A stretch of 60,928 nt of DNA from Bacteroidales bacterium (GTDB lineage Bacteria > Bacteroidota > Bacteroidia > Bacteroidales > WCHB1-69), in contig JAILCI010000026.1 in NCBI GenBank assembly GCA_024686335.1, positions 1-60,928 of the forward strand. Direction: 5' to 3'. Position numbers and translations under genes: made by a program. The notes below the pieces were generated by a model. It was not told where the DNA came from and made no database searches. It saw only the letters and a program-made list of their open reading frames with translations. Within the stretch, counting starts at the first letter, position 1, and each line of letters starts with the position of its first letter. Positions 52,598-54,383 of the stretch are shown one piece after another.

Positions 52598-53725
52598 ATG
52601 GACACTTTTATCGTTTCGGCGCGCAAATATAGACCTACCAACTTCCACTCTGTAGTGGGGCAGGATGCTATTACCACCACTTTGAAGAACGCCGTTAAGA
52701 CTGGCCAAGTAGCTCAGGCGTTTCTTTTTTGTGGACCTCGAGGAGTGGGTAAGACCACCTGCGCTCGTATCTTGGCAAAGGCTCTCAACTGCCAGCATCT
52801 GACAGAGGATTGTGAACCTTGTAATGAGTGCGAGTCCTGCCGTGCCTTTAACGAGTCTGCCGCATTTAATGTCTTTGAGTTGGACGCCGCATCCAAGAAC
52901 TCAGTAGAGGATATCCGTGATCTGGTGAAACAGATTCGGGTCCCACCGCAAGGCGCTTCCTACAAGATCTATATCATCGATGAGGTCCATATGCTTTCAA
53001 CACAGGCCTTTAACGCTTTCTTGAAGACGTTGGAGGAACCTCCTGCATACGCTAAGTTTATTCTGGCAACGACGGAGAAGCATAAGATTATGCCGACTAT
53101 TCTTTCCCGTTGTCAGGTGTACGATTTCAAACGTATTACTGAGAATGATATCGTCAAGCATTTGCAATATGTTGCTGAACAAGAGCATGTTACTGCAGAT
53201 ATTGATGCACTCCGTATGGTGGCAACCAAGGCCGACGGAGCTTTGCGTGATGCCCTCTCCATCTTTGACCAGTTGGTGACCTCCGTCGGGAAGGAAGTCA
53301 CATACCAAAAGGCGGCAGCACACCTGAATGTGCTGGATATCAGTAATTTCTTCAAAATCACGGATTATGTCCTCAGCGATAATGTTTCCGATGCTCTGCT
53401 TCTGCTTGATGATATTTTAGCCAAAGGTTTTGATGGACAGAACTTTATCAGTGGTCTGGCGACACATTTCCGTAATTTGTTGATGGCTCAGAACCCTGCC
53501 ACCCAACCTCTGTTGGAGTCTTCAGATTCTGTGAAACAACAACTTCAGGTCCAGGCTCGCAAGGCAGACCGTACTTTGTTCCTCCGTGCCCTCGAGTTGA
53601 CCAACCTGTGTGATCTCAACTATAAAGATGCTCACAATAAGAGGTTGACTATTGAGCTTTGCTTGATGCAGATTAATGCGAATTACATTTTCAAAAAAGT
53701 CAGGCAATCGCAGGAGCGAAGATAA
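52598..53725 (+). CDS. dnaX: DNA polymerase III clamp-loader subunit DnaX, zero-frame (gamma-like) part
   Basis: From the ATG at 52598 (MDTFIVSARKYRPTNFHSVVG) the zero frame gives 375 residues. It has the Walker A FCGPRGVGKTT (about 46-56), a four-cysteine zinc module (CQHLTEDCEPCNECESC), the Walker B/DEVH box IIDEVHM, the sensor-1 ATTEKHK and the collar domain. The frame ends at TAA 53723-53725 just after the collar, and lacks the C-terminal region that binds polymerase alpha and DnaB. That region continues in the +1 frame. Long upstream frames inside ftsY are not real. Confidence 0.93.
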   Translation: MDTFIVSARKYRPTNFHSVVGQDAITTTLKNAVKTGQVAQAFLFCGPRGVGKTTCARILAKALNCQHLTEDCEPCNECESCRAFNESAAFNVFELDAASKNSVEDIRDLVKQIRVPPQGASYKIYIIDEVHMLSTQAFNAFLKTLEEPPAYAKFILATTEKHKIMPTILSRCQVYDFKRITENDIVKHLQYVAEQEHVTADIDALRMVATKADGALRDALSIFDQLVTSVGKEVTYQKAAAHLNVLDISNFFKITDYVLSDNVSDALLLLDDILAKGFDGQNFISGLATHFRNLLMAQNPATQPLLESSDSVKQQLQVQARKADRTLFLRALELTNLCDLNYKDAHNKRLTIELCLMQINANYIFKKVRQSQERR

Positions 53726-54383
53726 CACAGAAAGCGGAGCGCTGCCCGCTCAGACAGAAAATCAAACCACAGAAACTGTCACGGCGCCATCCAAAACACC
53801 GAAGATGTCACAATCCTCGTTTAATTTTCCGGGCTATCCTGCTATCAAACCGATGCCTTCCATCAAGAGTGTGACTTCTCGCCCTATGCCTGAGGTCCAG
53901 CCAACAGCCGAACCCACTGCAGAACCTAGTCCTGTCACCGATGCCGAGACACCTGCACCTGCCAATTCAGATGTGGTTCTAGACCAAGAAAAAACCACTG
54001 AAGCGACTCCCGAACCTGCTGAAGAGAAAGAAGAGACCTTGGAATCTAATTGGAACGAGGTTGTGGATGAGATATTTAAGAATTTACCCATGCTCTACTA
54101 TACCCTCAAGAAGTCTTTGCCAACCTATCAGGACGACATTCTTACAGTGGAGGTGAATAATAAAATCCAGGAGGATGAGCTCTCCCAACGCAAACGGGCA
54201 GTTTTGGAGTATTGGAGATCTCATTTCAAAATGAACGTGGACGATTTTGAGATTGTCGTGAACGAGGATAAGGTGATTGAAACGGCTATTCTCACTTCTG
54301 ATGAACAGTTCAAATGTATGAAGGATCAAAATCCCGAACTGATTCATTTTCTTAATTTCTTGAAATTCAGGATGAAAAATTAA
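53667..54383 (+). CDS. dnaX: DnaX tau C-terminal region in the +1 frame (frameshift product or broken gene)
   Basis: This frame is open from 53667 and overlaps the zero frame for 59 bases. It first encodes a linker rich in Pro, Thr, Glu and Ala (about residues 30-110). A conserved domain follows (NWNEVVDEIFKNLPMLY, ILTVEVNNKIQEDELSQRK, TSDEQFKCMKDQNPELIHFL) matching the end of full-length Bacteroidota DnaX. An ATG at 53676 exists but independent translation is unlikely. Joining requires a +1 (or -2) shift, for example at the A6 run 53693-53698 or at AGA-TAA 53720-53725. An assembly indel or true mutation cannot be excluded. Confidence 0.75.
   Translation, partial: CRLMRITFSKKSGNRRSEDNTESGALPAQTENQTTETVTAPSKTPKMSQSSFNFPGYPAIKPMPSIKSVTSRPMPEVQPTAEPTAEPSPVTDAETPAPANSDVVLDQEKTTEATPEPAEEKEETLESNWNEVVDEIFKNLPMLYYTLKKSLPTYQDDILTVEVNNKIQEDELSQRKRAVLEYWRSHFKMNVDDFEIVVNEDKVIETAILTSDEQFKCMKDQNPELIHFLNFLKFRMKN

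Follow-up and report, generated by a model that had tools for sequence, protein, structure and literature searches.

A conserved 18-nucleotide block at the frame change of split dnaX genes in a Bacteroidales family, a probable +1 frameshift signal

Introduction

The dnaX gene of a Bacteroidales bacterium, carried on a stretch of 60,928 nucleotides that was analysed as a whole (contig JAILCI010000026.1, hereafter the window), is divided between two reading frames, and in the family to which this genome belongs the frame change falls on a conserved block of 18 nucleotides. We consider it probable (roughly 0.8) that a programmed +1 ribosomal frameshift at this block, whichever codon pair within it is used, makes the tau subunit, and that translation without the shift makes gamma. 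Judging from the sequences, it is very likely that ribosomes do shift in the dnaX of this family, and a new +1 frameshift signal is the best reading of the block. The dnaX gene is a textbook example of recoding, for which two kinds of signal are known, the A_AAA_AAG site and runs of A. If the prediction is true, the block would be an additional dnaX signal, acting in the opposite direction and distributed across 12 genera, and the two-subunit output would be kept while the means of obtaining it turns over. Sense-codon +1 shifting would also gain a compact bacterial model, from a group in which the anti-Shine-Dalgarno is reported to be occluded (PMC8710568), and gene callers may be separating tau from dnaX throughout a family.

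In the mechanism that we consider most likely, the P site is occupied by GTC, or else by GCG or GCC, and the A site by the slowly read rare arginine codon AGG; the Gly-tRNA for GGC would bind one base further and the A would be skipped. Ribosomes that skip this base would continue in the +1 frame and produce tau with its C-terminal region, and those that stay in frame would end a few codons past the block at the zero-frame stop, yielding gamma. The CAATCRCGGGAG part of the block may stimulate the shift. A programmed +1 shift with gamma as the unshifted and tau as the shifted product had been suggested in a preliminary description of this DNA, and as a prediction it is supported by the conservation of both the split and the block.

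The split dnaX gene

The source genome comprises 2.74 Mb in 64 contigs and is 99.85% complete, and its dnaX spans positions 52598-54383 of the window with the following features.

52598..53725, + strand: dnaX zero frame, a gamma-like protein of 375 aa that starts at ATG 52598, has the AAA+ and collar domains and ends in the short tail ...VRQSQERR
53667..54383, + strand: +1 open frame with the tau C-terminal region, open from 53667 and overlapping the zero frame by 59 bases
53693..53698, + strand: A6 run (C-AAAAAA-G), not conserved and outside the 18-nt element
53699..53716, + strand: putative frameshift element, GTC AGG CAA TCG CAG GAG, the 18 nt conserved in the alignment of split genes
53699..53705, + strand: predicted shift heptamer GTC_AGG_C (P-site codon GTC, A-site codon AGG, +1 codon GGC), based on the bracket of the shift, codon choice and usage, and tRNA genes
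53711..53716, + strand: 3' portion of the element, rich in purines, CAGGAG in the window and CGGGAG, TGAGGA or CGAGGC in relatives
53723..53725, + strand: zero-frame stop TAA that ends gamma, read from the sequence

The coordinates and +1 direction of the frame change were given in the preliminary description and hold, in agreement with 83 of 83 split family genes, and its 59-base overlap (53667..53725) and A6 run were likewise found again on re-reading the sequence. The zero-frame protein matches the AAA+, lid and gamma domain III in a domain search and scores 424.7 bits against TIGR02397. On the NCBIfam model PRK14971 (614 positions) it corresponds to positions 1-361 and the +1 protein to positions 392-606, and such consecutive matches indicate one gene in two pieces. 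In this single dnaX the frame change separates the clamp-loader domains from the tau C-terminal region, and these matches confirm the earlier assignment of the AAA+ and collar domains to the zero frame and of the tau region to the +1 frame. Translation of the tau part presumably begins at GGC 53703. An overlap of 59 bases is unremarkable by itself, and the significance of the split comes from its conservation among relatives. A plasmid search with dnaX gave, among the matches listed, just 60-80% matches that cover at most 38% of the gene.

Conservation of the split

In the window's genus the tau region was matched in 37 of 40 genomes, the window's own counted, and the three genomes without it are assemblies that are 59-86% complete. 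The tau match of one genome in this search (G034) contains one TAA, because it extends 5' beyond the block and takes in a TAA of the +1 frame there. In the window's family, a dnaX match at E<=1e-60 was obtained in 96 of 104 genomes, and every split gene that was read (83 of 83, from 82 genomes in 12 genera) has the +1 split at the same place. These 83 comprise 81 genes that were aligned and two more, L318 and L319. One genome that counts twice, G100, has two different dnaX genes (L089, L092) with the block in both, which reflects either a mixed bin or a duplication. A comparison of the overlap in relatives had been proposed as a check, and the recurrence of the same split in 82 genomes indicates that it is no assembly error.

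A single long dnaX frame is present in 11 genomes of the family from four genera (g3, g8, g12, g15), nine of which were fetched and two judged from frame length alone, and dnaX is truncated in G054, G071 and G074. The 18-nt block is absent from the nine fused genes fetched. The fused genes L127 (G091) and L128 (G053) have an A9 and A10 run at the place of the block, and it is possible that one recoding signal was swapped for another in these genes. In a quick dnaX tree that used 90 of 131 prepared rows, each half of the family contains split genes. The tree shows three changes, and the fused genes are nested among the split ones; the history of the split may have been either one old origin followed by losses, or a few gains.

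The conserved block

Alignment of the 81 split genes on the frame change gives the block consensus G[T/C]C AGG CAA TCR CGGGAG. The core [A/C]GG CAA [T/C]C is kept in all 83 split family genes read, and among the 81 aligned genes GGCAA and the C of TCR are invariant and the A of AGG is found in 80. With weighting by genus, the 81 genes carry 0.84-2 bits of information per block position, at most 0.70 bits at each of the 18 positions 5' of the block, and at most 0.58 bits at the 16 positions 3' of it, bar one at 0.87. The AGG CAA TCG of the window, located just 5' of the purine run, had gone unmentioned in the earlier account. Exact matches to AGGCAATCRCRGGAG in the 104 family genomes are all at the dnaX place, and outside the family they are found in 4 of 387 genomes of the order, where the backward control gives 2. 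With one mismatch, AGGCAATCRCRGGAG has about 45 hits away from dnaX in the family genomes, and the backward control pattern has 24 hits at no more than one mismatch in the same 104 genomes. A recurrent one-mismatch hit is CGGCAATCAC[AG]GGAG, found at 12 places in family genomes; seven of these places were fetched and show long open frames without sign of a frame change, and the sites are perhaps antisense to a conserved gene.

The codon that follows TCR is CGG, CAG, CGA or TGA in the 81 genes. Invariance in the 3' half of the block is partly expected because this stretch is double coding (RQS in one frame and GN[H/R] in the other), and the preferences for AGG over CGG and for GTC would not be expected from double coding. 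The purine run together with the nearby stop does appear to belong to the conserved context.

Predicted position of the shift and codon choice

The place at which the frames must be joined can be bracketed from unusual members of the alignment. In L087 (G076) the second and third bases of the P-site codon make a +1-frame TGA with the first base of AGG, directly before GGC, so that +1 reading starts at GGC or later. In six genes (L117, L119, L121, L124, L125 and L126, from g6 and g13) the zero-frame stop comes directly after TCR, and the shift must therefore precede this stop. Provided that one position serves all genes, the shift is bracketed to about 10 nt, the upstream end of the bracket depending on one gene, L087.

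Within this bracket, it is moderately likely that the shift takes place with GTC in the P site and AGG in the A site. The P-site codon of the 81 genes is GTC in 40, GCG in 26, GCC in 9, GCT in 3, and CTT, TCT and GTG in one each. Where this codon specifies valine it is GTC in 40 of 41 genes, compared with 4-27% of valine codons by genus in the genes sampled, and where it specifies alanine it is GCG in 26 of 38, compared with 5-22% of alanine codons by genus. The A-site codon is AGG in 80 genes and CGG in one, though AGG makes up 25-70% of AGG and CGG taken together. In the window's ORFs AGG is used less than any other codon (1.7 per 1000), and its rank, counted from the rarest, is 1-9 among 61 codons across the 11 sampled split genera. 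In three fused genera sampled it ranks 4-7, so that its rarity does not distinguish the split genera. Among the 45 tRNA matches in the genome there are one gene for tRNA-Arg(CCU) and three for tRNA-Gly(GCC), and by codon and tRNA gene counts a rare A-site codon is thus combined with a well-read +1 codon (AGG/GGC). A tRNA-Ala(CGC) was not found in this list, which may be incomplete in an assembly without a 16S match, and GCG is accordingly probably read by wobble. CGG stands in place of AGG in two of the 83 genes, those of G006 (L068) and G030 (L319), and in both the preceding codon is CTT, as if a slippery P-site codon offset the codon change.

By codon-anticodon reasoning, no +1 re-pairing is available after GTN or GCN, which are the P-site codons of 79 of the 81 genes (40 GTC, 1 GTG, 38 GCN), and Ty1-type slippage is thus inapplicable to most of them. 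In yeast, CUU_AGG_C is reported to be avoided in other genes. No such avoidance of AGG_C is seen in the other genes sampled here, where in-frame AGG_C occurs 59 times with 56.3 expected (93,679 codons), GTC_AGG_C twice and CTT_AGG_C once, five dnaX frames being left out. Since the heptamer is not avoided elsewhere, it is probably not strongly shifty alone, and the conserved 3' half of the block, CAATCR with the purines, probably has a role in the shift.

The same programmed +1 shift could use another codon pair, namely AGG_CAA_T, CAA_TCR_N or TCR_stop, with the block acting as a unit. This sub-case of the main explanation has a lesser chance, rather unlikely but well ahead of the alternatives discussed below. 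The bracket of about 10 nt leaves room for all three pairs, the GG of AGG is matched in its invariance by CAA and by the C of TCR, and the six genes with a stop right behind TCR are prfB-like in this respect. It would, however, leave unexplained why GTC or GCG precedes AGG against codon bias and why AGG is preferred over CGG, and the variety of codons after TCR offers no common slow A site.

Other routes to the shift were also considered. RNA structure was predicted around the site for 26 of the 81 loci, in eight windows; mean z values ranged from -0.68 to 0.11, with no common stem visible. The 13 genomes searched for 16S rRNA included nine of the window's genus, none of which gave a match, and duplex energies of the element with the one 16S found, from another family of the order (L332), were no better than those of shuffles. 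Two candidates were rejected by eye. An expanded-anticodon tRNA that reads AGGC is disfavoured by the sole tRNA-Arg(CCU) found, whose anticodon loop has the ordinary 7 bases, and hopping between AGG and another AGG 10 nt downstream would fit g1 alone.

Alternative explanations

In the window, AGGAG at 53712-53716 is followed by CGA, AGA and TAA, and from this spacing a resemblance to the prfB site had been proposed, in which AGGAG would act as an internal Shine-Dalgarno and the A site would be occupied by the stop codon of gamma. The genome's own prfB (L321, contig C23, about 11452) has the canonical +1 site AGGAGG TAT CTT TGA C, and such shifting is probably available to the cell. The spacing is indeed present in the window, but it is not conserved: among the 81 genes the codon before the stop takes 16 forms and the stop lies 3-10 codons after AGG, so that neither a stop right after a slip codon nor a fixed short Shine-Dalgarno spacing is found, and in six genes (g6, g13) the purine run first begins inside the stop. 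A prfB-type shift is hence improbable in dnaX.

To a similarly small degree, the block might be no nucleotide signal at all, its invariance arising from the peptides of both frames (RQS and GN[H/R]). Conservation of both peptides would by itself largely dictate AGG CAA TC. Yet replacement of the A of AGG by C would alter neither peptide and is seen in 2 of 83 genes only (G006 and G030), both after CTT; moreover the P-site GTC lies outside the double coding, the sequence on either side of the block is poorly conserved, and joining of the frames would still require a shift.

Slightly less probable still is a gene fission, by which gamma and a separate tau C-terminal protein would be made through re-initiation at the purine-rich, Shine-Dalgarno-like stretch. 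An ATG does occur in the window's +1 frame, at 53676, and an SD-like AGGAG or GGGAG lies close to the gamma stop. Among the 81 genes, however, no start codon for a separate tau fragment is conserved: just 46 have an ATG, GTG or TTG in this frame 5' of the block, at varied distances, and those downstream are scattered. Fission also does not predict the conserved GTC AGG CAA TCR. Substitutions bear on the same question, since in 160 within-genus pairs the +1 frame directly 3' of the gamma stop shows 935, 803 and 1293 changes at codon positions 1, 2 and 3, a third-position excess which suggests that this linker is translated in the +1 frame; the rest of tau shows the same trend (7206, 5300 and 14165), stronger than behind the gamma stop.

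RNA polymerase slippage on the A6 run is very unlikely. It has a precedent in Thermus (PMC5009743), and runs of nine or more A are common at the same place in other Bacteroidota dnaX; but the run is just A6, short of about 7-10 A, and is missing at that place from most split family members. A6 is present in some g1 species and not kept in other genera, and split relatives read AAGAAG, CTGCGCAAT, CGGCACCGT, GCGACTAAA and others there. The preliminary description had favoured the A-run as slip site and had named, as evidence against it, relatives with the same split and no conserved A-run. Such relatives are what was found, and the A-run fails as the slip site; its lack of conservation makes slippage an unlikely process in this family. 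Finally, a sequencing error or pseudogene, conceivable for a single window in a draft assembly, has a negligible chance given the identical split in 82 genomes.

Comparison with known recoding systems

In E. coli, dnaX has a -1 site, A_AAA_AAG, with stimulators, and in Thermus slippage occurs on A9, tau being the unshifted product (PMC5009743, PMC3711429). The recoding predicted for the family described here would likewise give two subunits from dnaX; it differs by the +1 direction and by tau as the shifted product. Antonov et al. (2013, PMC3711429) reported 17 two-ORF dnaX genes, all -1 at the DNA level, 12 of which have A7-A10 runs for which transcriptional slippage was proposed. Such two-ORF genes resemble the family dnaX in that the zero frame ends with a gamma stop and tau of the same gene needs recoding, whereas the change in the family is +1 (81 genes together with L318 and L319) and not -1, without an A-run and with another conserved signal. 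The modes treated in the dnaX section of the 2016 review PMC5009743 are those of E. coli, Thermus and Caulobacter and the two-ORF mode; a +1 dnaX is absent from that section. Likewise, a +1 dnaX site was not found among the papers listed in full-text literature searches, which covered mostly open-access papers and no bioRxiv preprints, and a 2025 paper on prfB (PMC12421855) names dnaX just in a reference.

The prfB shift involves a stop in the A site, re-pairing on CUU and a Shine-Dalgarno at a short fixed spacing (PMC8710568). Family dnaX has the +1 direction and a purine-rich stretch with a stop close by in common with prfB, but the A-site stop, the CUU re-pairing and the fixed Shine-Dalgarno spacing are none of them conserved. 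According to the same source, the anti-Shine-Dalgarno is occluded in Bacteroidia and prfB shifting occurs there (PMC8710568).

Further counterparts are the +1 sites of Ty1 (CUU_AGG_C), Ty3 (GCG_AGU_U) and the yeast genes YFS1 and ABP140 (PMC5009743, PMC12719033), and the Ty1-type site also has a natural variant, CUU_CGG_C in YFS1 (PMC12719033). The P-site codon of this type either can slip (CUU) or is a special non-slipping codon (GCG). Ty1 and the site predicted in the family dnaX both place a rare AGG in the A site with GGC as the +1 codon, GCG as presumed P-site codon recalls Ty3, and CUU_CGG_C is shared by YFS1 and the dnaX of G006 and G030. The family signal differs from Ty1 and Ty3 in that it is bacterial, mostly has GTC or GCN without re-pairing in the P site, and possesses a longer conserved 3' part. 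We see a little better than an even chance that G[T/C]C_AGG_CAA_TCR_RRGR is an independently evolved bacterial counterpart of the Ty1 and Ty3 sites, which would shift at a sense codon without a stop, Shine-Dalgarno pairing, P-site re-pairing or RNA structure.

dnaX in other Bacteroidota

Loci of other Bacteroidota and of the window's order were picked by short frame or similarity and not randomly, and the tallies that follow are therefore not frequencies. Of 80 named Bacteroidota loci listed, 56 have a single long frame and 18 are split at a run of nine or more A (read by eye from the codons); the remaining loci are three with an in-frame TAG, one member of the window's family, one off contig and one with an adapter-like end. 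Of the 56 single-frame loci, 48 carry a run of at least 8 A and eight are without it, the run being sought from about codon 333 past the stop so that its exact place may differ. In the order, frame lengths were available for about 150 + 78 rows listed, of 287 genomes with a match, and 37 genes were fetched, either for their short frames or to serve as comparison: 29 are split at an A-run, three are in one frame, three run off the contig and two are undecided. The 18-nt block is absent from all 29 order genes split at an A-run. Bacteroidota dnaX thus often appears to have an A-run at the place where the window's family has the probable +1 signal.

Runs of 9 to 13 A were observed at the gamma/tau boundary in L131-L141, L143-L146, L301-L309 and 18 of L152-L230. 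Genes with such runs are single-frame or split even inside one family (f29, f68, f16), and their long product would flip between the shifted and the unshifted form. In L181 (JADILW010000088.1), dnaX runs into CTGTCTCTTATACACATCTGACGCTGCCGACGAA at the contig end, presumably a sequencing-library adapter, and this end is a probable assembly artefact.

Three loci from other uncultured Bacteroidales/Bacteroidetes (L164, L171, L185), which form one supported group in the dnaX tree, show a different arrangement, with a TAG after about 366 aa and tau in the same frame. The context of this TAG is (P/T) TAG ATT GCW AGG (...*IAR[S/G]P...), and it is followed by 201 (L164), 254 (L171) and 189 (L185) codons. 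The gene after dnaX in L185, which we take to be DapF-like, apparently ends in TAG, and a general reassignment of TAG is thus unlikely. These genes are candidates for programmed UAG readthrough, which would be a further means to obtain gamma and tau.
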